This document shows, piece after piece, positions 30,368-47,423 of a DNA stretch of 64,000 bases (positions are counted from its first letter, which is position 1; the number at the start of each line of letters is the position of its first letter). The notes below the pieces were generated by a model. It saw only the letters and a program-made list of their open reading frames with translations. It did not search any database and had not been told where the DNA came from. This DNA comes from Pedosphaera sp. (GTDB lineage: Bacteria > Verrucomicrobiota > Verrucomicrobiia > Limisphaerales > UBA9464). Where the stretch lies: assembly GCA_009695205.1 (NCBI GenBank), contig SIBK01000001.1, positions 1 through 64,000 on the forward strand, written 5' to 3'. The translations under genes and the position numbers were made by a program.

Positions 30368-31391
30368 TCATCCAAGTCTCCTCCATGCAGCGGCCACCGC
30401 CTGCTGGTTCATTCCGATGACTGGCACCCAGGCCCGAGTCGCTGGCGTGGACTGCAAGAGTTCTAGCGCCGCCAGGCACTGCCACGCCGACCCCGCCGCC
30501 AGCCCTTCGCCCAGCAGTGCCTTCGCTGAAATCCGGGGCCCGGCCCAATCCGACCACGCTGCAGCCTCGGCTCGATCGTAGCTGTCACACCCCACAAGGC
30601 CGTCGCTCAGTGCAGTCTTTCCATCCGGGTGCCGCATCAATGCACGAACCTGGCGAACCGCCTGACGCCTCTCCGACGGTCCGGCACACGGAACTATCGC
30701 GGTCACCCGATCGAGTGTCAGTGAAGACTTTTCGTGCCGCAACCGGACAGCACCCGCCCCTTCACCTAAAATCACTCCACGCGAAAAATGCCGAAGGGCA
30801 TCGGCGGTTAGCCAGTCGACCTCTTCCGATGCCACCACCAAGCAATCATCCACCCAGTCGTCCGTCAGCCATTCCGCCGCCAACTGTAAGCCATACACGA
30901 AAGCGCTCTGGTCCCGGACCAACGTGTAGCAGGGACCTTTCGCACCGAGAATTGCGGCAAGGTGGGATGCTGGTGCGTTGAAAACTGTTTCGGGAAAAAT
31001 CAGGGGGCTTGCTGTCGACGGATCCCGCAGGGTTTCATCAAAAAAGCGCCGGGTGTAATTGACGCATCCGGCAAAGGCGCAAAACACGATTCCAAGACGA
31101 TCCACTAACGGACACACGTCAGCATCTCCACCAATCCCCATCGCTTCCAACGCCGCCGCTAAGGTGAAATGGCTGATGGCACTGGTTCGACGCAACCGAT
31201 TATGTCCCAAAAACCAAGGCCGGATCGGTGGCGGGGGGACGTTTCGAACTCTGTACGAAAACTCCCGATCCGACCGATGCAACGACGTCTCCGGCAATGT
31301 CATCCGATCTCTCAACACGGTCCGGAATGGGGCCCATCCCCCAACCGGCAGGCGTCACCGCCCCGACCCCATGAACGTAGCAGCCGCTCAT
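30368..31391 (-). pseudogene. Frameshifted ketosynthase-like gene (second of pair)
   Basis: The N-terminus, MSGCYVHGVGAVTPAGWGMG (ATG 31391, overlapping the preceding stop as ATGA), is in a different frame from the rest, which resumes at VLRDRMTLPETSLHRSDREF near 31325 and runs to 30368. One base inserted in the G/C homopolymer run GGGGGATGGGGCCCC would explain it. The body keeps the thiolase fold (LAAALEAMG, FNAPASHLAAILGAKGPCYT, VVASEEVDWLTADALRHFSR, GVILGEGAGAVRL). Where a ketosynthase has its active cysteine it reads TLVRDQSAF, so it resembles a non-condensing partner such as a chain-length factor. The homopolymer location leaves a sequencing error possible. Confidence 0.65.
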
Positions 31392-32622
31392 GCCCACCTC
31401 CGGAGAATGAGAGTTCCATTGGAACCTCCAAAACCGAACGAATTGGTCAAGACTACCTCCACTCGCTCGTCCTGCGGCACCCGGATCAACCGAAATCGAC
31501 ACACCGGATCTACAGATTCGACTGTCGTCTCCGGCGGCAGCCACTGCTCCCGCAGTGTCATCAAGCACACAACGGCCTCCACTGCGCCTGCCGCGCCGAG
31601 CAAGTGTCCAATGCCAGATTTCGTGGAACTCACCGCAACCCGCCCTGCATTCGCTCCCGCCCAACGATTAATCGCCGCAACCTCCGCGGCATCGTTGAGC
31701 CGAGTTCCTGTGGGCATTGATGTAGTCGATCTGATCAACGCCGACTCCGGCAACCCGGCAGGCAGCGGTCATCGCCGCCAGAGCCGCATCCCCATCAGGA
31801 TGCGGCTGCTTGAGGTGATGCACATCCGTGCTAGCCCCATATCCAATGATCTCGCCAAGGATCTCCGCGCCACGGCCCCGTGCATGTTGGAGCGTTTCCA
31901 GACACAGAACCCCCGCTCCTTCGCCAAGGGCGAGCCCGTTACGCGCCACGTCAAAGGGACGGCACCCGGTGGTTGACAGGGCTTGAAGTGAATCAAACCC
32001 CGCAAACACAAGCTGACTGAGTGCATCGTATCCTCCCGAAAGCACGCGTTCAGCACGGCCATGTCGTAGAGTCTGAAACGCATGCCCAATGGCATTGGCG
32101 CCGGAGGCGCACGCATTCGCAATGAAGCGTGACCGGCCCGGACAACCCCGCTGCATCCAGCGCTGCCCAGGCCTAAGCCTGGGCCTAATACCCCGCAACC
32201 CGCGTCGCCTGCCCGGCCGCATCGCCCGAGGCGTTCAGTGTGTGTCGATAGTAAGCCTCACCGAGCCCCATACCGCCGCTGGTGGTCCCGAACACACACG
32301 GGACCCCGGTGCCCCCACGATTCCACCCCGCCTGTTGCGTGGCCTCGAGAGTTGCAAGGATTAACAATCGCGCTGCCCGATCCAAACTGCGGCCGAGACG
32401 GACCTGGCGGGAACCACCGCTCGCCAAGGACGGTAAAGCCACCTCCGCCGCCATCCGGGCGCGTTGGCGAGAGATGTCGAAGAGGCTCACCGGGCGAAAC
32501 GCAATCGCGCCTAAGCGGAAACCGGCCACATTGGTCGCCCACCCCACACCGTTAGCCGTAACAATCCCGGCACCCGTAACTACCACCCGCCGGGGAGAAG
32601 TGGCAGAAGAAGAATCCATCAT
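31388..32622 (-). pseudogene. Broken beta-ketoacyl synthase (FabF-like)
   Basis: Three frames make one FabF-like protein. MMDSSSATSPRRVVVTGAGI (from 32622) runs to RVAGY then TAG. Two TAG codons lie in a palindrome where Gln codons would give GYQAQAQAWAALDAAGLSGP. A second frame begins near 32115 and contains FIANACASGANAIGHAFQTL with the active-site cysteine, ending YINAHRNSAQ. A third resumes GTRLNDAAEVAAINRWAGAN and reaches SFGFGGSNGTLILRRWA. The second shift removes about 5 nt from the catalytic NAHGTGT motif, right after its histidine. With nonsense codons plus two frameshifts the gene cannot make an active enzyme as written. Confidence 0.75.
32165..32184. repeat. 20-bp palindrome inside the ketosynthase remnant
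   Basis: GCCCAGGC-CTAA-GCCTGGGC is a perfect inverted repeat. On the minus strand it carries or borders the two TAG codons that interrupt the gene. Replacing T by C at each would restore Gln codons. Confidence 0.7.
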
Positions 32623-34617: not shown

Positions 34618-35496
34618 TTAATCGATGAATCCGTCGTGCTCGGTCGAAATTCCTGCGGGAGCCGGTCCGAGCGTCACCTTGCGATGCATCGGTCGCAACG
34701 CCTTGGGAAGAGTTCGTAGGATCACCTTCGGACCGTCCGATGAAGTGACGATCAGCTCGACGCCCGCTTTCTCCAAGGCCGCGTGAATGTCGGCGGGCGG
34801 CAGTTGATCGGTGATGACCGTATCAATTGCGTCGAGCACACACAATTGACTGATCGATTGACGGCCAAACTTCGTGTGATCCACACACAATATGACACGG
34901 CGCGCCGCCTGCATCATGGCCCGCTGAATCTCAATCAGCAGTCCGTGTGAATTGGTCACCACTTCGGTGGTAATGCCCCCGCAACTCATGATCGCCACGT
35001 CCGCGTAAACCTGGGCGAAGGACGAAACGGCCATCGGGCCCACCAACACACCGAGCCGCGGATAGATAACGCCACCCGTGACCATCACCTCGGTTCTCGC
35101 TGACGAGGAAAATGCATTCGCCACGGGCAGCGAATTGGTGATCAAATGGGGACTCTTTGCCTCGAGATGGCGAGCGACGTGAAAGCAGGTCGTCCCAGCA
35201 TCCACGATCAAGGTCTGATTCGGAAGAATCAGATCTGCGCAAGCCTGCCCAATGGCTTCCTTCTCCGCCAATTGCTGGGTGTCACGAGCAGAAAAGGTGA
35301 ACTCATCCGATTTTGGATTCACCAACCGGGCTCCGCCATGAGTGCGACGAACCACTCCCCTGCTCTCCAAAATGTCCAAATCCCTACGAACCGTGGAAAC
35401 CGAAGCGTCGGCAAGCTCAGAAAGCTCATCCAACGAAGCAAATTCAACTTTCGCAAGGTATTCCTCAAACCGCTGTTGGCGTTCTTCGGATTGCAT
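34618..35496 (-). CDS. DeoR-family regulator of the microcompartment locus
   Basis: The 292-residue protein starts MQSEERQQRFEEYLAKVEFA with a winged-helix domain (SLDELSELADASVSTVRRDLDILESRGVVRRTHGGA), the DeoR DNA-binding signature. A sugar-phosphate-sensing domain follows (LPNQTLIVDAGTTCFHVARH, MVTGGVIYPRLGVLVGP, VDHTKFGRQSI). DeoR regulators normally repress sugar catabolic genes until a phosphorylated sugar binds. It is divergent from pduL, 84 bp apart, and PVM compartment loci usually carry a DeoR gene in this position, so it is the likely local regulator, with a deoxysugar phosphate as probable effector (inference). Confidence 0.9.
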   Translation of the reverse strand: MQSEERQQRFEEYLAKVEFASLDELSELADASVSTVRRDLDILESRGVVRRTHGGARLVNPKSDEFTFSARDTQQLAEKEAIGQACADLILPNQTLIVDAGTTCFHVARHLEAKSPHLITNSLPVANAFSSSARTEVMVTGGVIYPRLGVLVGPMAVSSFAQVYADVAIMSCGGITTEVVTNSHGLLIEIQRAMMQAARRVILCVDHTKFGRQSISQLCVLDAIDTVITDQLPPADIHAALEKAGVELIVTSSDGPKVILRTLPKALRPMHRKVTLGPAPAGISTEHDGFID

Positions 35497-36360: not shown

Positions 36361-36654
36361 ATGAGCGAAGCAATCGGCATGATCGAAACAAAGGGCTACA
36401 CCGGAAGCATCGAAGCCACCGATGCCATGGCCAAGGCTGCAAACATCACCATCACCAAAACCATCTCCATCGGGGGGGGGCTCATCACCGTCATCTGCAA
36501 GGGGGATGTGGCGAGCGTGAAGGCCGCGGTGGACGCCGGCTCGAAGGCCGCCGGTCAGGTCGGCGAACTCGTCGCCAGCCATGTTATCGCCCGCCCACAT
36601 GACGATCTCGGCAAGATATTTTTTGGCGACGCAGCTCCCATAGCCCGGAAATAG
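36361..36654 (+). CDS. BMC-H hexameric shell protein 1
   Basis: The 97-residue Pfam00936-type protein reads MSEAIGMIETKGYTGSIEAT to VASHVIARPHDDLGKIFFGD. It forms cyclic hexamers that tile the flat facets of the microcompartment. The I-G-M-I-E-T-K-G start, [23 protein letters not shown] core and VIARPH end are classic. The pore loop lies around KTISIGGG. The codons for that GGG sit in a run of nine G bases (36472-36480). There is no Shine-Dalgarno; the leader is CAAC-rich and almost free of G. Confidence 0.95.
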   Translation: MSEAIGMIETKGYTGSIEATDAMAKAANITITKTISIGGGLITVICKGDVASVKAAVDAGSKAAGQVGELVASHVIARPHDDLGKIFFGDAAPIARK

Positions 36655-36692: not shown

Positions 36693-36971
36693 ATGGCTCA
36701 ACAAGCAATTGGCATGATCGAATGCAAGGGGCTTTGCGCACTGTTCGAGGCGGTGGACGCCGCGCTCAAGGCCGCGAATGTCTCCTTCACCGGCTGGGAA
36801 AAGATCGGCTCCGGCTACGTCACCGCGTTTTTTCGTGGAGATGTGGCGAGTGTGAAGGCTGCCATTGACGCCGGTGCCGCAGCGGCGGCGCAGGTCGGAT
36901 CAGTGGTAAGCGTGCAGGTGATCCCCCGCCCCCACGACGGCCTCTCTGTTCTCGGCAAGTGGTTGCAGTAG
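36693..36971 (+). CDS. BMC-H hexameric shell protein 2
   Basis: The 92-residue BMC-H paralogue reads [20 protein letters not shown] to [20 protein letters not shown]. It differs from its neighbours at the pore-facing segment ([17 protein letters not shown]) and has two N-terminal cysteines (IECKGLC). It should be another facet tile with a distinct pore. The 38-nt leader contains no G and no Shine-Dalgarno. After its stop, another frame stays open to the ackA start (see 36968-37081). Confidence 0.95.
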
Positions 36972-37081
36972 TCGGGGAAGCCGCGAAGCCGAAGCCCGAA
37001 GCGGTGACCGCCTGGGGCAAACCGAAGCCGCCCATCCGTCGGCCTCCCAGTTTCGGCGCGCGGAAACCCGCTTCGCTGTAA
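36968..37081 (+). other. Open reading frame tail after BMC-H 2, possibly a lost extension
   Basis: In the +1-shifted frame the sequence reads [20 protein letters not shown] and then PPIRRPPSFGARKPASL, ending in a TAA that overlaps the ackA ATG (taATG). A Pro/Lys-rich tail and a coupled stop suggest that this was once a C-terminal extension of BMC-H 2, cut off by a 1-nt indel in GGCAAGTGGTTGCAG. No start codon with a ribosome site supports a separate gene. Confidence 0.4.
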
Positions 37082-38268
37082 TGAAGATACTCGTCGCCAA
37101 CCTCGGCTCGACCTCGCTCAAGTGGCGCTTGTTCGATTTTTCGAACTCCGCCGAGACACTGCTCCACAAGGGCGGCTTTGAGCGAGTCACCGACTATCCG
37201 CAGGCGATCGCGGGATGTCTCGCGGAACTGAAAAACGCTGGGGCAATCAACGACGAACAGGATCTCGCCGCGGTCGGTTTCAAAACTGTCATTGCGAAGG
37301 GAATCACTGGCTGTGTGCGAATCGACGACCGGGTGCTCGCGGCGATGGAAGCCTATAACGGGCTCGCACCAGCGCATAATCCACCTTATATAACCGGCAT
37401 CCGCCTGTTCGCTCAACGCGTTCCCGGCGTGCCCCTCATCGCGTTGTTCGAGACGGCGTTCTATCAGTTTGCACCTGAAGCAATGATGCGTTACGCCGTT
37501 CCTGATTCGTGGGTTGACATCGGCGTGCGGCGTTGGGGTTTTCACGGCGCGAGCCACAAATTCATCGCAGAGCGATCCGCACAACTCCTCGGACGAGCCG
37601 ATGTCGCTGCCCGGACCGAAAGCCTCTACGTCAATGGAGGGGCTTCCCCTGCGGAAAACCCGCCCCTACGGGTGATCTCCTGTCACCTGGGCGGCAGCTC
37701 TAGTATCAGCGGAATCCGCAATGGCATTGCAATTGGAAACAGTCTCGGCATGAGCCCGCAATCGGGTCTGCCCCACAACAACCGCGTGGGGGATCTCGAT
37801 GCCGAAGCTCTACCTTATGCGGTCAAAACCCTCGGAATCACACTCGACGAAGCACAACGGCAGTTTGCCAAGGAAGGTGGGTTGAAAGGTCTCAGCGGTG
37901 GTCTTTCCAACGACATTCGGGACATTCAGGTGGCCGCAGCGCAAGGGAATGCGAAGGCGAAGCTCGCAATCGACGTCTTTGTGAGCGAGGCGCGCCGCTG
38001 GATCGGGGGCTACTTCTTCCAACTCAACGGTGCCGACGCTATCGTCTTCACGGCCGGCATCGGTGAAAACCGAGCAGAACTTCGCGCGGCTATCTGCGCT
38101 AATCTTGACCAACTTGGCATCGTGCTCGATCCCGAGGCAAATCAGGCCGCCCGCGCTACCGAAGCCGTCATCAGCGCCCGGAACTCGGGCGTCCGGGTGT
38201 TTGTGATCCCAACCAACGAGGAATTGGTCGTCGCCCGCGAGGCGAAACGGCTCCTTGAAGTGAACTAG
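37081..38268 (+). CDS. ackA: Acetate/propionate kinase of the microcompartment locus
   Basis: The 395-residue ASKHA-fold kinase converts acyl phosphate plus ADP to acid plus ATP, completing the PduL branch. Motifs: MKILVANLGSTSLKWRLFDF (phosphate 1), ALFETAFYQ, RRWGFHGASHKFIAERSAQ, ISCHLGGSSSISGIRNGIAI (phosphate 2), DAIVFTAGIGENRAELR (adenosine). Its N-terminus reads NLGSTSLK where ordinary AckA has N-x-GSSS. Compared with the family it carries about 15 extra residues (ESLYVNGGASPAENPP) before the phosphate-2 strand, encoded by a palindromic GC-rich segment. Confidence 0.9.
   Translation: MKILVANLGSTSLKWRLFDFSNSAETLLHKGGFERVTDYPQAIAGCLAELKNAGAINDEQDLAAVGFKTVIAKGITGCVRIDDRVLAAMEAYNGLAPAHNPPYITGIRLFAQRVPGVPLIALFETAFYQFAPEAMMRYAVPDSWVDIGVRRWGFHGASHKFIAERSAQLLGRADVAARTESLYVNGGASPAENPPLRVISCHLGGSSSISGIRNGIAIGNSLGMSPQSGLPHNNRVGDLDAEALPYAVKTLGITLDEAQRQFAKEGGLKGLSGGLSNDIRDIQVAAAQGNAKAKLAIDVFVSEARRWIGGYFFQLNGADAIVFTAGIGENRAELRAAICANLDQLGIVLDPEANQAARATEAVISARNSGVRVFVIPTNEELVVAREAKRLLEVN
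37636..37669. repeat. GC-rich palindromic insert inside ackA
   Basis: GGAGGGGCTTCCCCTGCGGAAAACCCGCCCCTAC has near-inverted ends (GGAGGGGC/GCCCCTAC) and an internal AGGGG-CTT-CCCCT palindrome. It keeps the ackA frame open and encodes residues not expected in the family. It resembles dispersed GTAGGGGCGGGTTT-type repeats. Classification as a repeat is inferred from one copy. Confidence 0.4.
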
Positions 38269-39287: not shown

Positions 39288-40793
39288 ATGATCGCCGTCA
39301 ACGAACTATTGATCCGAGACATCGTTTCGGAAGTATTGGGCCGCCTGGGCGGCCTCCCGGCACCTGCGAAGCCGGCGGTCTCAGCCGGGTCCGCCGCCGC
39401 GACCTCGCCGTGCGGATGCGGGGGGAAGGGCATCGCAACGAGCGCCCCCGGTTTGCGGGGCAAGTTCGGCGTCTTTGCCGACGCCGTCGAGGCATGCGCC
39501 GCGGCGCAGGAATCCTTCGTGCAGCTCCAACAGATGGGTGTCGCGGCGCGGGTCAAAATTGTCGAGATCGTCAAAGCCATGGCGGAGGCCAACGCCGAGG
39601 TCTGGGGCAGACTCGAACTCGACGAAACCCGTATCGGACGTCTCGACCACAAGATCGAGAAACTAAAGATTATTCGACTCGTCCCGGGCGTGGAATGGCT
39701 CCGCCCGGATGCCCGCAGTGGCGATCATGGAATCACTCTGGAGGAATATACGCCGTTCGGAGTGATCGGTGCCGTCACGCCGAGCACGCACTCGATACCG
39801 ACACTGAGCGGAAACATCGTCAACATCATCGCGGCAGGCAATGCGGTGGTGTTTAACCCTCATCCCAGCGCGGCGCGATGCGCTGCGGTCGCGATCCGCG
39901 CCTACAACGAGGCCATCTATCGTGAGATCGGCATCGAAAATATCGCCACGATCATTGAGAAGCCCTCGATGGAAAGCTTCTCATCCATCTGCAAACACGA
40001 CGCCGTGCGACTCCTGCTGGTCACCGGCGGACCCGGTGTGGTGAAGGCTGCGATGGAAACCGGCAAGCGGGCGGTCTGCGCCGGACCTGGAAATCCTCCG
40101 GTCTACGTCGATGACACCGCCTGTATGAAGCGTGCAGCCAAGGCGATCATTCAGGGTGCGAGTTACGACAACAATCTGCTCTGCATCGGTGAGAAGGAGG
40201 TTTTTGCGTTGGATAACATTGCGGACAAATTGATGTCGCAAATGCAACAGAACGGAGGAGTTAAGCTAACGACTGTTCAGCTCGAGGCTCTGACCAAGGC
40301 TGCGTTCACGTTTACAGCAGGCCAGGGTGGTGGGTGTGGACATGCCGCGGTGAACAGGGATTTCATCGGGAAGGATCCGAGTGTGCTCGCCCGGGCTGCG
40401 GGGTTGAACATTCCCGAGGGAACGCAATTGTTGTTTGCAGAAACCGACGCGAACCATCCGTTCGTCGTCGAGGAGCAGATGATGCCGTTCTTGCCGATCA
40501 CTCGAGTGAAGAGCCTGGAGGAAGGCGTTGCGCAATCGTTGGTGGCCGAGCACGGCTATAAGCATACGGCAATCATCCACTCTCATGATATCGAGGCGAT
40601 GACAGCCATGGGCCGAGCTCTGGACACGACGTTGTTCATCAAGAATGGGCCCTGCATGGCTGGGCTCGGTTTGGGTGGGGAAGGCTATCTCAGCTTTAGC
40701 ATCGCAACACCGACGGGCGAAGGGGTGAGCAATCCACGGACATTCACTCGAGTACGCCGGTGCGTCATGGTGGATAATCTCAAGATTTATTGA
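39288..40793 (+). CDS. pduP: CoA-acylating aldehyde dehydrogenase (PduP/EutE-like)
   Basis: ATG 39288 gives 501 residues. The enzyme oxidises the aldolase-derived aldehyde to acyl-CoA, reducing NAD+. The N-terminal helix NELLIRDIVSEVLGRLGGL plus a Pro/Ala/Gly-rich linker resembles an encapsulation peptide. The linker has a CGCGGKG cluster. The catalytic domain shows EEYTPFGVIGAVTPSTHSIP, VVFNPHPSAARCA, LLVTGGPGVVKAAM, CAGPGNPPVYVDD and the active cysteine C299 in YDNNLLCIGEKE. It is the central enzyme of the compartment and is followed by two vertex genes. Confidence 0.93.
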   Translation: MIAVNELLIRDIVSEVLGRLGGLPAPAKPAVSAGSAAATSPCGCGGKGIATSAPGLRGKFGVFADAVEACAAAQESFVQLQQMGVAARVKIVEIVKAMAEANAEVWGRLELDETRIGRLDHKIEKLKIIRLVPGVEWLRPDARSGDHGITLEEYTPFGVIGAVTPSTHSIPTLSGNIVNIIAAGNAVVFNPHPSAARCAAVAIRAYNEAIYREIGIENIATIIEKPSMESFSSICKHDAVRLLLVTGGPGVVKAAMETGKRAVCAGPGNPPVYVDDTACMKRAAKAIIQGASYDNNLLCIGEKEVFALDNIADKLMSQMQQNGGVKLTTVQLEALTKAAFTFTAGQGGGCGHAAVNRDFIGKDPSVLARAAGLNIPEGTQLLFAETDANHPFVVEEQMMPFLPITRVKSLEEGVAQSLVAEHGYKHTAIIHSHDIEAMTAMGRALDTTLFIKNGPCMAGLGLGGEGYLSFSIATPTGEGVSNPRTFTRVRRCVMVDNLKIY

Positions 40794-42529: not shown

Positions 42530-43456
42530 ATGAAAGTAACGATCATTGGCGGCGGTGGCCGCGTGGGCTCGTGCGCGGCATTCGCGCTACAATGCGGTGG
42601 CCTGGTCGCCGAGATGCAGATTCTCGACGCTAACACGGAGTTGGCCGAGGGCGAAGCCCTTGACCTGTTGCATGGCACCGCGTTCTGCGGCGATCAGCGG
42701 ATCTATTCCGGCGACTATTCACGGGCGGCCGATAGCGACATCTTTCTCATCACGGCCGGCCTTCGCCGTAAACCGGACGAATCCCGACTCGATCTGATTA
42801 ACCGAAATGTCACACTTTTTCTGGGAATCCTCGACAGCATCAAGGCGGCGGGGTTCCGGAAGGACGCGCAGGTGTTTGTGGTTTCAAACCCGGTAGATAT
42901 TCTCACCCAACTTGCGGTGAAGCGGTTGGGGCTGCCCTGGCAGCAGGTTTACGGGCTTGGAACGATGCTCGACACGTCGCGTTTCAGCTCGTTCATAGCG
43001 GAGGAACTCAAGCTCGCGCCAACCCAAGTAAAGGCTCTCATTCTCGGAGAACACGGCGATTCGATGCTGCCTGTCTGGTCGAGCGCCACCGTCAATGGAC
43101 TGCCCCTCACCGGTCTGCCGGAGTGTTCACCGTCGTTCCAAAACGCCGTGTTTGAACGCACCAAGGGCAGCGGAGCGGAAGTTATCAAACGGAAGGGCGG
43201 TGCAGGTTGGGCTGTCGGCGTGGCCATCCGCGACGTCATTCATGCAGTCCTCCTGAACAAGCAATCCCTGCTCCCTGTTTCGTCTTTGGTGCAGAGCGCC
43301 TACGACATCCGCGACATCTGCCTGAGTGTACCGAGTGTCATGGGACGCGCAGGGGTTCTAAAGCATGTGGAGATCAAATTGTGGCCCAAAGAAACCATGG
43401 CGTTGCAATCGTCGGCCCGCGCCCTCAAGGACACTCTCGCAAAGGTGAAGGTCTAG
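42530..43456 (+). CDS. Lactate/malate dehydrogenase-like enzyme
   Basis: ATG 42530 gives 308 residues. VTIIGGGGRVGSCAAFALQC is the NAD-binding motif. GLRRKPDESRLDLINRNVTL carries the substrate-binding arginine region, VVSNPVDILTQLA the N-P-V-D signature, GLGTMLDTSRF a conserved arginine and LILGEHGDSMLPVWS the catalytic histidine. PVM loci commonly hold such a gene. Its proposed job is to re-oxidise NADH made by the aldehyde dehydrogenase, perhaps by reducing lactaldehyde or pyruvate. The actual substrate is inferred only. Confidence 0.9.
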   Translation: MKVTIIGGGGRVGSCAAFALQCGGLVAEMQILDANTELAEGEALDLLHGTAFCGDQRIYSGDYSRAADSDIFLITAGLRRKPDESRLDLINRNVTLFLGILDSIKAAGFRKDAQVFVVSNPVDILTQLAVKRLGLPWQQVYGLGTMLDTSRFSSFIAEELKLAPTQVKALILGEHGDSMLPVWSSATVNGLPLTGLPECSPSFQNAVFERTKGSGAEVIKRKGGAGWAVGVAIRDVIHAVLLNKQSLLPVSSLVQSAYDIRDICLSVPSVMGRAGVLKHVEIKLWPKETMALQSSARALKDTLAKVKV

Positions 43457-43506: not shown

Positions 43507-44838
43507 ATGAAGTCCCTCGACACCAAGCTCGCCGAAATCCGCTCCAACCCGGGCTCGCGCACATTCATCCTTGCGGACGCCAAGGACGCCGACATGGCCT
43601 TTGGCGTCCGGGCACCGGGGCCGCGGAGCTATCTCGCTCGGCGCGGCGCGCGTCCGGCGCAATTTTCCCCGGAGGTGTGGAACCGCGACGAATTTGGAAG
43701 CCGCAACCTTCCGGAATTCCTCGACATCATCCGCGAAGTCGCGCAGCAGGGACTGGTGGACATCCTGTTAATGTCCGCGTACGTCAACGAACTGCTCACC
43801 ATTAAGGAGGGACTCTTTCGAAATTCTCATGTCACACCCGCAGCCCGTGCAAACGACACGACCGACGTCTGGGCGGCGCGGCACGGTTGTTATACCCGAG
43901 AACCATCCCAACCTTTTCGGAGCGCCAGCATCGACCACATCCAGTGCGGTGAGATTGAGTGCGATCGTGACGGTGTCGGAAAAAGCAACAACAGCGACGG
44001 CTTTCCGGGAGCAAATTTGGGCCTGTACTCGATCACCTTCGTCAATGAATTGGAACAGGACCGCGAGGCTCTCTTGTGGTATAAGGAATTTCGCGAAGAG
44101 GCCGAACGGAAACAATTCCGACATTTTCTGGAAGTTTTCGATCCGAACGTGGATTCCGGAATCCCCCGTGAAAAACTCGGCGAGTTCATCAACGACAACA
44201 TCCTCCGGACCCTGGCGGGCGTGCCACAATCCGGCCGGCCGGATTTCCTCAAGATTGTCTATCACGGCCCTAAAGCCATGGAGGAGCTGGCCCAGTATGA
44301 TCCCAACCTTGTCGTGGGAATTCTCGGAGGCAGTGCAGGCACCACCTACGATGCTTTTAAGTTAATCCACGATGCGCAGAAGTATGGCGCGCGCGTCGCT
44401 CTCTATGGGCGCAAGATCAACAATGCCGAGCACCAGCTTGCCTTCATTGAGATGTTGCGCCTGATTACCGACGGCACGATAACGCCCGAGGAGGCGGTGC
44501 GAGCGTACCACGGTGTCTTGCAAGGCAAAGGAATCAGACCGCATCGGACGCTCGACGAGGATCTAAAGATTACGGATCAGGCGATGAGCTACGACGGCAG
44601 GGCGGTGCAGCGGACGACGATAGAGCTAAGGAATAATCCAATTGGCGGATCAAAGCCCGCTTCGGTAGAGGTCCCGAATCCAAAACTGGAACCTGCGGTG
44701 GATTTGGATTCTGCATTTCCCGGAACGAGCTCTGGCGAGTGGCCGAAGCGAGAGAATGGAGGGCCGGATTTCGAAAGGATGACAGGGGCCCAACGTGTGA
44801 CCTATCACAAATGGCGCTTGAAGCGCACCTTCGGTTGA
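43507..44838 (+). CDS. Unrecognised aldolase-barrel-like protein at the end of the microcompartment locus
   Basis: I do not recognise this 443-residue protein by family name. The first half starts MKSLDTKLAEIRSNPGSRTF, then ILADAKDADMAFGVRAPGPR and LVDILLMSAYVNELLTIKEG. The second half has FLKIVYHGPKAMEELAQYDP, LVVGILGGSAGTTYDAFKLI and YGARVALYGRKINNAEHQLA. This order of a D-x-K strand, a late K-strand, a G-G-S-A-G loop and a G-R-K-I loop resembles DhnA/LacD-type class I aldolase barrels, with lysines as possible Schiff-base formers. The last 80 residues are low-complexity and charged. It is 50 bp after the dehydrogenase gene on the same strand, so a catabolic step linked to the compartment is likely. 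Confidence 0.75.
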   Translation: MKSLDTKLAEIRSNPGSRTFILADAKDADMAFGVRAPGPRSYLARRGARPAQFSPEVWNRDEFGSRNLPEFLDIIREVAQQGLVDILLMSAYVNELLTIKEGLFRNSHVTPAARANDTTDVWAARHGCYTREPSQPFRSASIDHIQCGEIECDRDGVGKSNNSDGFPGANLGLYSITFVNELEQDREALLWYKEFREEAERKQFRHFLEVFDPNVDSGIPREKLGEFINDNILRTLAGVPQSGRPDFLKIVYHGPKAMEELAQYDPNLVVGILGGSAGTTYDAFKLIHDAQKYGARVALYGRKINNAEHQLAFIEMLRLITDGTITPEEAVRAYHGVLQGKGIRPHRTLDEDLKITDQAMSYDGRAVQRTTIELRNNPIGGSKPASVEVPNPKLEPAVDLDSAFPGTSSGEWPKRENGGPDFERMTGAQRVTYHKWRLKRTFG

Positions 44839-44843
44839 CCTCA

Positions 44844-47423
44844 CTAGAAGTGCCGCGCAAGCAGTCGACTTGCCCCTACGAGATGGATGGTGAGCACGAC
44901 CAATACCAACAGAAACGCCAATGATTCGGGATTGCGTTTTTGCCATCCCAGCAGCGATGGCACCCATCCGTGCGCGCATACCACCACGACGACGACGTGA
45001 AAGGGGAGCAGGATGCGGGCGTCCAAGACCAATCGCCCCCCCGCAAAATGGACCTCGGCAGCCACCATGGCGACCCACACCACCACAGCACCCGAGAATA
45101 GCGTGAGTTGAACCAGTCGATGCGTATGCGTGGTTCGGGAACACCGCCACCAAAGAAGCGCGTATCCTCCTGCAAAGAACAGAATTAATGGCGATATCAG
45201 CCATCTCGGCAGAAGGACATCCGGATAGCCCACGCCGTTCCAGAAGGATCCAACCGTCAGAAAATCGCGCTCTCCAGGACCCAGAGAACGAAATGTGGCC
45301 ACCACCACCTCTCGAACGACCGCTGCGCCAGGAAAATCGTCCCGCAACGTTCCGAGCGCAGGAAGCAGCGGAGGCACGATTCCAGATCCAGGCACCATCG
45401 CCGTCGGGGGTGAGGCAATGCCACCATTTGCAACAAAAGCGACCGGCCGTAGTATGGAAAGAACTTGAGCAACACCCACCGCAACCGCAGCCAGCCATGC
45501 CCACGTGGTCAAGCGACTGATCAACGCACCAAACCGGCCGCCACCGCTGGTTTGGGTGAACAAATGCGCCCCCAACTCCAGAAGAGCGAGCACGCACACT
45601 GCAATAAGTACCAGTACCGGGAGCGGCAACGCGGCAAGCCAGGGATGGTGAATTCTGTGGGAGAATTCGGTCAGTAGTTCCGCCTGACGAAGGTCGAAAA
45701 ACGGATTTGAAACCAGCCGCGGGAGACAAACCCCAAGTCCCAGTAGCCCCCAAAAGCCGCATATCTCCTTCGCCATCCGCACATCCTTGATCGTCGCTGG
45801 AAGCAATGCCCGGAGCGGTTGAGCCAACAGTAGGACAACGGAAAAAGCCGCCGCAGGCATCATCCCGCCGTCGCTATGCAGCAGCAATCCAAGGCCCAAG
45901 CCATAAACGCCCCCCAGCCACCAGGGCACCCGGACCCGCTGCAGCAGTAAGCCAATCGCCCCCGCAAGAATCATGGCCGAAAACAGTACGAACGGTTGGG
46001 CGGAAAAATTCATCGCCCACCAAGGCAGACCGGGCACCAGCAAAAGGAGAATCGCCGCCCACCCCGTGCGCCCTTCGCCCGGGTGTCCGACAGCCGCCGC
46101 CCCCGACAACACCGCCACTCCTAGAGCCGTCAGCAACAAACACAGAAGTCTTCGCCAGAACAGGTACTTCGCCGCCGAGCCCGTGTCCCCGATCCATCCG
46201 GTCCAGCGCCACCACGCTCCACCCAGCGAAGTCCGGGTTTCCGGACGCAACTCCGCCACGGGCGCTTCAAGGCCCGGCTCCGGCTTGCCAGCGAGATCCT
46301 GCATCGTTAGCTTCTGTTCCGGATGCAATAACCGCCGCTGAATCGCGGACTGATTGTACAACGAAGTAACGCCTCCCGGCCCGTTCAAGTCCGAAATCTC
46401 CGAATCAAAGCTTTGTAATGTCTCAAGTTCATCCGCGCCGGACATCGCCGGGGTCAATACGGCATTCCCAAGCCCGAGCGCCAGCCACAGACAACTGGCC
46501 CCAGCCGCCGTCCGCACCGCGAGAATCTCCGGTCGAGGCAGCGCTGGCTCTATCCATGGAAATACCGCAATTCCGATCGCGAGCAGGATTGCGGCGAACC
46601 CCAGCCAAGCGGTCAGCCCACCCATCCCAGAAAATCGGCCAAGGGCAGTCAACACGTCCTGACGGCTGCCCGCCGGCGTTGAATCTTGGGTGACAAACCG
46701 CCCGTGGGGAATGCACACATTGACTACGTTGGTTGGCTGACCCGTTTGCGGCTCCGTCGTGTGAGCAAATACCCCCAACGCCGGCTCTCTTACCGCATTG
46801 AAGGATTCGCTCGTGATGACATGGCACCGGAGCGCCACCAACCCCGGCGCGTCCGCCTCAACCTTCAGTTGCCAACGGGCCGAAGCTGCCTCCTCCACGC
46901 TGGATTTGCCCGTCCGGACAAGTTCCAACAGATCGCCATTCTTCAAGTCCGTCGAGCCGTCAAATTTGAAACTTGGAGCCCTCCCTTCCAAGCTCAGTTG
47001 GGCAGACCAAATGCGAGCCTTCCCATTGAGACTTCCACCGCGGCCGGCCGGTGAATGCAAGTCCAGATAAAACCCAACCCGGGTCGCCTTCGAGAACCCA
47101 CTCTTCCATCCTGGCCAAGCCTCGAGATCCATCTTCAACACCGTCTTGCCATCGTCGCTTCGTACCTGCTCAAACGGTACTGAAACCAGACGACTGTGCT
47201 GTGACAGGAACGCACGGCTCCCCGGACTCCAATACTCCAACCGATGGGTTTCGAACGTCGGGGCGGGCATCCCCAACAGCCAATGAAGCGTACCAAAATA
47301 GGCAGCTCCCCCAAAGACCGCGAGCGCAACCACCCACACCCACTGCCCTCGCCACCACCGGCTCGCAGAAATGTCCCCGGACTCCCGGGAAGCCCGACGA
47401 CTGTGTCGTTTCTTTAAAGGCAC
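44844..47423 (-). CDS. Large polytopic membrane protein, unknown function
   Basis: The 859-residue protein has one N-terminal membrane helix (VWVVALAVFGGAAYFGTL), a periplasmic-looking beta-rich domain of about 220 residues (ETHRLEYWSPGSRAFLSQHS onward), then 12 or more membrane helices from GLTAWLGFAAILLAIGIAVF to the end. A loop NAVLTPAMSGADELETLQSF after an early helix has an acidic D-E pair, as in GT-C-fold glycosyltransferases and DUF2142 proteins, where acidic residues in the first loop act in catalysis. That is only a resemblance. It is convergent with the microcompartment operon, with 5 bp between stops. Confidence 0.65.
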   Translation of the reverse strand: MPLKKRHSRRASRESGDISASRWWRGQWVWVVALAVFGGAAYFGTLHWLLGMPAPTFETHRLEYWSPGSRAFLSQHSRLVSVPFEQVRSDDGKTVLKMDLEAWPGWKSGFSKATRVGFYLDLHSPAGRGGSLNGKARIWSAQLSLEGRAPSFKFDGSTDLKNGDLLELVRTGKSSVEEAASARWQLKVEADAPGLVALRCHVITSESFNAVREPALGVFAHTTEPQTGQPTNVVNVCIPHGRFVTQDSTPAGSRQDVLTALGRFSGMGGLTAWLGFAAILLAIGIAVFPWIEPALPRPEILAVRTAAGASCLWLALGLGNAVLTPAMSGADELETLQSFDSEISDLNGPGGVTSLYNQSAIQRRLLHPEQKLTMQDLAGKPEPGLEAPVAELRPETRTSLGGAWWRWTGWIGDTGSAAKYLFWRRLLCLLLTALGVAVLSGAAAVGHPGEGRTGWAAILLLLVPGLPWWAMNFSAQPFVLFSAMILAGAIGLLLQRVRVPWWLGGVYGLGLGLLLHSDGGMMPAAAFSVVLLLAQPLRALLPATIKDVRMAKEICGFWGLLGLGVCLPRLVSNPFFDLRQAELLTEFSHRIHHPWLAALPLPVLVLIAVCVLALLELGAHLFTQTSGGGRFGALISRLTTWAWLAAVAVGVAQVLSILRPVAFVANGGIASPPTAMVPGSGIVPPLLPALGTLRDDFPGAAVVREVVVATFRSLGPGERDFLTVGSFWNGVGYPDVLLPRWLISPLILFFAGGYALLWWRCSRTTHTHRLVQLTLFSGAVVVWVAMVAAEVHFAGGRLVLDARILLPFHVVVVVVCAHGWVPSLLGWQKRNPESLAFLLVLVVLTIHLVGASRLLARHF

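Follow-up and report, generated by a model that had tools for sequence, protein, structure and literature searches.

Why would a microcompartment locus that encodes a class II aldolase end with a gene that resembles an aldolase of a different class? PVM microcompartments are described as fucose and rhamnose organelles that have a single aldolase, of class II, and the diet of environmental bacteria is inferred from where these organelles occur. The window analysed here, a stretch of 64,000 nucleotides from Pedosphaera sp. (contig SIBK01000001.1), carries a locus of this type with the complete set of genes: DeoR, PduL, three BMC-H, AckA, three BMC-P, an acylating aldehyde dehydrogenase, the class II aldolase and a lactate/malate dehydrogenase (LDH/MDH). 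The gene in question, here called X, lies downstream of them all (Table 1).

Table 1 Features of the PVM locus and of gene X, with positions in the window.
Feature	Position	Strand	Remarks
DeoR-family regulator, divergent	34618..35496	-	
PduL-type phosphate acyltransferase, PF06130	35581..36261	+	start inferred
BMC-H shell protein	36361..36654	+	
BMC-H shell protein	36693..36971	+	
Acetate/propionate kinase, AckA-like	37081..38268	+	translation, synteny
BMC-H shell protein, PF00936	38442..38729	+	
BMC-P shell protein, PF03319	38826..39137	+	
CoA-acylating aldehyde dehydrogenase, EutE/PduP type	39288..40793	+	start inferred
BMC-P shell protein, PF03319	40797..41075	+	
BMC-P shell protein, PF03319	41072..41377	+	
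Class II aldolase/adducin-family signature enzyme, PF00596	41394..42431	+	start inferred
Lactate/malate dehydrogenase, proposed NAD+ recycling	42530..43456	+	start inferred
X, putative class I (Schiff-base) aldolase	43507..44838	+	core barrel 1-362, linker ~363-409, conserved tail ~410-443
Lys249 codon, proposed Schiff-base lysine, strand β6 (FLKIVYHG)	44251..44253	+	invariant in 18-sequence alignment A2
Tail WPxxxxGxPDFxxMxxxQRxxYxxxRLxRxFG, candidate targeting tag	44731..44835	+	after A/S/P/T/G-rich linker; predicted helix 427-442

The reading frame of X begins with ATG and encodes 443 residues with no internal stop. It shares its strand with the LDH/MDH gene, whose stop at 43456 lies 50 bp before it, and the first long ORF beyond it is convergent, on the minus strand (44844-47423). 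X is therefore the last gene of the locus. An earlier note on this DNA had described both the protein and its terminal position correctly, and the four barrel motifs that it quoted are all present in the translation. Elsewhere in the window (30368-32560, minus strand), a beta-ketoacyl-synthase-like gene is apparently broken into several overlapping frames, which suggests assembly frameshifts or a decayed gene.

A scan of GTDB genomes returned 309 relatives, so X is a genuine coding gene and not a chance frame. The 80 that were kept out of these 309 are 68-86% identical to X over essentially its full length. A match is found in 69 of 116 genomes from the same order, and the genome of the window has one copy only. 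The titles of most records with a relative name Verrucomicrobiota. Three records (L012, L015, L050) are named Klebsiella or Proteobacteria; because X sits there in the same Verrucomicrobiota-type PVM locus, they suggest mislabelled MAGs. Searched with X, viral contigs yielded a single fragment (51%) and PHROGs nothing useful; a promoter scan found none.

To which family does X belong? A Pfam search with X stayed empty at E<=1, in keeping with the remark of the earlier note that the protein could not be assigned to a named family. There is no match above the gathering score to PF01791 (DeoC/LacD family aldolase) in X and none in its own genome, nor does X match the class II (metal) aldolase profiles PF00596 and PF01116. 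A Pfam scan of 36 relatives likewise found no aldolase family in any of them, and neither phmmer nor hmmsearch with X found a match in the PDB. In NCBIfam, residues 245-334 have weak but significant matches (E 5.5e-4) among the DhnA-type aldolases, the top ones being ADH synthase and the LsrF-type thiolase; the best score, 19.4 bits, compares with a curated cut-off of 241 (ADH synthase, LsrF thiolase and archaeal FBPA families). One remote relative, L091, is 27% identical to X over residues 222-354 and is itself a member of PF01791; against the PDB it matches LsrF, ADH synthase and archaeal class I FBP aldolase. When a profile of 26 X-family sequences was aligned by hhalign with one of DhnA relatives, the probability was 95.6 over residues 178-336. 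It was 0.1-0.4 for six unrelated families of the locus taken as controls; the locus's class II aldolase gave 0.2. These control probabilities outweigh the hhalign E-value, which as printed refers to a single comparison.

The structure model of residues 1-362, made from 80 sequences (pLDDT 77.4, pTM 0.82), is a (β/α)8 barrel: strands 21-26, 86-89, 110-114, 171-177, 205-211, 247-250, 269-273 and 297-300 alternate with helices. In a Foldseek comparison of this core with the PDB, all 50 of the 50 matches listed are DeoC/LacD/DhnA-type Schiff-base aldolases (E 3e-8 to 1e-6, probability 1.00). LsrF is the best of them; the others include ADH synthase, tagatose-1,6-bisphosphate aldolase, archaeal class I FBP aldolase, the Slackia fructose-bisphosphate aldolase and sulfohexulose-1-phosphate aldolase. 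Identity to the solved aldolases is ~10-15%. The TM-scores, 0.43-0.53 on the query and <=0.73 on the target, show for the modelled protein a core common to X and the known aldolases, with extra segments in X. An earlier model that contained the linker and tail (36 sequences) was poor, with a pLDDT of 52; its top 20 matches were nonetheless DhnA-type aldolases. Judged from profiles and model, X is a new branch of class I aldolases outside the named Pfam and NCBIfam families, tied to PVM microcompartments.

The lysine and the phosphate site expected of such an enzyme can be traced in X. Lys249 lies within model strand 247-250 (β6) and in the profile alignment faces a lysine in 14 of 14 DhnA sequences; Gly301-Arg302 is aligned with GR in all 14 as well, and G274 also aligns with the DhnA family. 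The phosphate-site features of X are GG274-275 after β7 and GR301-302 after β8. In alignment A2, at 50 to 87% identity, the residues D24, D27, D29, E209, K249, G274, G275, G301 and R302 are all invariant. The second catalytic residue is a Tyr in archaeal FBPA and a Glu in rabbit FBPA; no equivalent of the archaeal Tyr was found in X by the profile alignment, whose β1 register is uncertain. In LsrF, the Schiff-base lysine is Lys203, and phosphate is bound by Gly226, Gly227, Gly253 and Arg254 (PMC2728841).

The barrel model, the Foldseek matches and the alignment of Lys249 and GR301-302 together support the presence of a predicted class I aldolase beside the class II aldolase in one PVM locus. 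The earlier note had raised this arrangement and guessed at a DhnA/LacD-type enzyme. Both ideas are borne out at this level: the two comparisons it had proposed gave a TIM barrel, from structure prediction set against the PDB, and an alignment with the DhnA family, from profiles, that stands far above the controls.

The association of X with PVM microcompartments is strong, and X is dispensable. On the same contig piece as X, 60 of the 80 kept relatives have PVM shell genes or the class II aldolase, X lying behind this aldolase on its strand; among loci with >3 kb before X, shell genes are present in 50 of 64. When the LDH gene is absent in between, the gap from the class II aldolase to X is often 0-30 bp, on the same strand. 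Sixteen genomes have X away from shell genes: 14 of these carry BMC-P above the cut-off elsewhere, 13 of the 14 have three, and the PVM loci retrieved from the 14 have no X inside. The neighbourhood survey that the earlier note had suggested thus finds a conserved association. In an even sample of 145 Verrucomicrobiota genomes, from whose count one remote X match was left out, X occurs in 10, BMC-P in 25 and both in 8 (Fisher p 1e-5, relatedness ignored). Since 17 of the 25 PVM genomes in this sample carry no X, the organelle can work without it.

A further shell gene varies among these loci. In seven relatives, all LDH-less, a two-domain PduT-like BMC gene (183 aa) lies just upstream of the PVM regulator (L121:2205-2756 (-), L123:2380-2931 (-), L131:307-858 (-); also L122, L126, L129 and L133), and it occurs in 0 of 16 LDH-bearing loci. 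It may mark an alternative way of NAD+ recycling; the loci are related, and this is a hint only.

The copies of X that are not linked to the PVM locus lie in short operons with recurrent partners. One is a D-lyxose-isomerase-like cupin (PF07385, E 2e-50), whose PDB relatives are D-lyxose and D-mannose isomerases; another is a kinase, either a prokaryotic ketohexokinase (PF25270, E 3e-48) or a different member of the PfkB group. A DeoR regulator and an aldehyde dehydrogenase are further partners, and the L030 operon also has GlcD and an iron-sulfur protein resembling GlcF. Short-form PF07385 occurs in 8 genomes of the phylum sample, 7 of them with X (Fisher p 4e-9, relatedness ignored). In one genome (G039), an operon DeoR-X-ALDH-isomerase-ketohexokinase adjoins the PVM locus; between the two lie a rhamnulokinase gene and genes for lactate oxidation of the LutB type. 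A convergent bifunctional rhamnulose-1-phosphate aldolase/dehydrogenase adjoins the PVM-linked X of L005, and the same kind of sequence lies next to X in L009 and L020. The X of the window is unlinked to isomerase and kinase partners, because its genome lacks PF07385 and has its sole PF25270 kinase on another contig.

Two of the neighbouring genes deserve description in their own right. The short-form isomerases that travel with X constitute a D-lyxose isomerase subfamily of ~190 aa, which covers PF07385 positions 52-221 (L085:921-1493, L082:2544-3113, L194:4000-4572) and may have its own substrate. In several unlinked operons, a conserved protein of ~385 aa is encoded directly upstream of X (L030:8832-9989, L029:8700-9992, L053:2302-3447); it has no Pfam or NCBIfam match and is possibly a sugar epimerase.

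An isomerase, a C1 ketose kinase and an aldolase make up the usual route from a sugar to DHAP and an aldehyde. The isomerase and ketose kinase beside unlinked X are our main ground for taking its substrate to be a ketose-1-phosphate, from which we infer cleavage with DHAP as a product; the haloarchaeal ketohexokinase phosphorylates C1 of ketoses (PMC11519228). We consider it reasonably likely that X belongs to the class I aldolases of the DhnA/DeoC/LacD superfamily and serves the organelle by splitting a ketose-1-phosphate, with DHAP and a short aldehyde as products. Its substrate is probably a ketose phosphate other than that of the organelle's class II aldolase; as to the exact sugar, and a position of X inside the shell, any proposal is speculative.

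In the mechanism that we propose, Lys249 on β6 would form an imine with C2 of the ketose phosphate, while GG274-275 after β7 and Gly301-Arg302 after β8 would hold the phosphate. One invariant acid, either D24, D27 or D29 after β1 or E209 on β5, would transfer the proton. The resulting metal-free Schiff-base cleavage of a ketose-1-phosphate would release DHAP and a short aldehyde, lactaldehyde in the case of 6-deoxy sugars or glycolaldehyde in the case of pentoses. The aldehyde would be oxidised by way of the acylating dehydrogenase of the shell, PduL and AckA, and DHAP would enter glycolysis. In this lineage X would have become a fixed member of the PVM locus, at its end, and would add to the class II enzyme a second aldolase that produces an aldehyde.

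The C-terminus of X may bear on its location. In the clade that contains all PVM-linked X, a linker of 26-63 residues (rich in Ala, Ser, Pro, Thr and Gly) is followed by a conserved tail, for which even the poor full-length model gives a high-confidence helix; nine outgroup relatives stop near residue 360, without the tail. The helix has a moment of 0.43 +/- 0.08, within the range of the locus's other termini, and is unusually basic. Most of the tail is kept by the unlinked copies, whose genomes also have the organelle. In the genome of the window the tail occurs once, and a search there for other proteins with it found none convincing. A quick tree gives the tailed group an SH-aLRT of 98, with the PVM-linked state spread along its base and the unlinked copies as two changes; this pattern would fit a tail acquired no later than the fixation of X in the locus. 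A strict tie between the tail and microcompartment genomes was rejected, as tail-less outgroup X is present in PVM genomes too (7 of 9).

The conserved C-terminal helix may, from its sequence and predicted structure, be a targeting tag. A fuller version of this idea is possible, though rather unlikely: X would be an encapsulated second signature enzyme that opens the organelle to a further ketose-1-phosphate, such as a pentulose phosphate that yields glycolaldehyde, and the helix would be a new type of cargo tag, acquired on the move from a sugar operon to the microcompartment locus. One locus, L015, has a duplicate of the tail alone (L015:12166-12300, WPKQADGKPDFDKMTAEQRTNYHTSRLTWMLG), ~1 kb downstream of an intact X. 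A tandem paralog of X was rejected in this case, the second match being the duplicated tail fragment only.

It seems unlikely that X acts outside the shell as a fructose-1,6- or tagatose-1,6-bisphosphate aldolase, which would combine DHAP from the class II aldolase with glyceraldehyde-3-phosphate for gluconeogenesis. Growth on fucose or rhamnose does yield much DHAP, by an established pathway, and the 50 Foldseek matches listed include LacD and the archaeal class I FBP aldolase as some of the nearest folds. A Haloarcula cluster, moreover, unites ketohexokinase, fructose-1-phosphate kinase and class I FBP aldolase (PMC11519228). However, X is not needed in this capacity, since two class II FBP aldolases are encoded in its genome, one with a strong PF01116 match (328 bits) and one with a weaker match; for the same reason X was rejected as the cell's only FBP aldolase. 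The unlinked operons, in which X accompanies a ketose isomerase and usually one kinase, are also a better fit to a monophosphate. The weaker PF01116 aldolase (G000:C77:8158-9078, L193) is encoded a few kb from an aldehyde dehydrogenase gene.

Could X perform other DhnA-type chemistry on a phosphorylated sugar intermediate, such as an LsrF-like thiolase or an ADH-synthase-like transaldol reaction? Its top sequence matches are those two enzymes and its best PDB match is LsrF, but no Lsr or aromatic-pathway genes accompany any X gene examined, and its partners are an isomerase, a kinase and aldehyde-oxidising enzymes; we hold this to be quite improbable. A mainly structural or regulatory role in the organelle, for example scaffold docking through the tail, conserved after its low-complexity linker as a high-confidence predicted helix, deserves very little credence, as relatives in sugar operons that have no tail still keep the catalytic lysine and the phosphate-site residues unchanged.

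A conserved second aldolase of the other mechanistic class, outside the Pfam and NCBIfam families, would imply that in many PVM organisms further sugars can enter this compartment or, alternatively, that DHAP is handled in an unexpected way. X would also offer a defined family of aldolases, partnered by an isomerase and a kinase, that is amenable to direct expression and assay.

We finally compare X with known systems. With the DhnA-type class I aldolases (archaeal class I FBP aldolase, ADH synthase, LsrF) it shares the eight-stranded barrel, the Schiff-base lysine on β6 and the GG and GR phosphate-site motifs. It differs from them in its low identity (~10-15%), the missing PF01791 match and a core of ~360 aa instead of ~260 aa, as well as in a low-confidence insert after β1 (residues 37-65) and the C-terminal tail. 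YihT and LacD, which act on sulfofructose-1-phosphate and tagatose-1,6-bisphosphate, respectively, have the barrel and Schiff-base lysine in common with X; in contrast, X has no PF01791 match and its isomerase partner is PF07385, not PF07221. The operon logic of sulfo-EMP, an isomerase with a PfkB kinase and a class I aldolase, is the same as in the unlinked X operons (PMC9594981). A sulfoquinovose sulfo-EMP operon was nevertheless dropped as an explanation for these, because the known SQ isomerases are PF07221 or FucI-like, not PF07385. The linker and terminal helix of X resemble encapsulation peptides in architecture, except that its helix is unusually basic.

Among microcompartments, the locus of the window contains all core genes described for the Planctomycetes-Verrucomicrobia (PVM) type (PMC4207490). 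The PVM descriptions compared here name one aldolase, the class II PF00596, and leave a class I aldolase unmentioned (PMC4207490, PMC8217296, PMC8857213, PMC5615132, PMC13274419); the 2014 founding study may mention one. A parallel is the SPU locus, a microcompartment locus that, like the one described here, has a class I aldolase of the DeoC superfamily (PMC8217296). There it is DeoC with an RpiB-type isomerase, whereas X is distinct from DeoC and stands beside an aldolase of class II.
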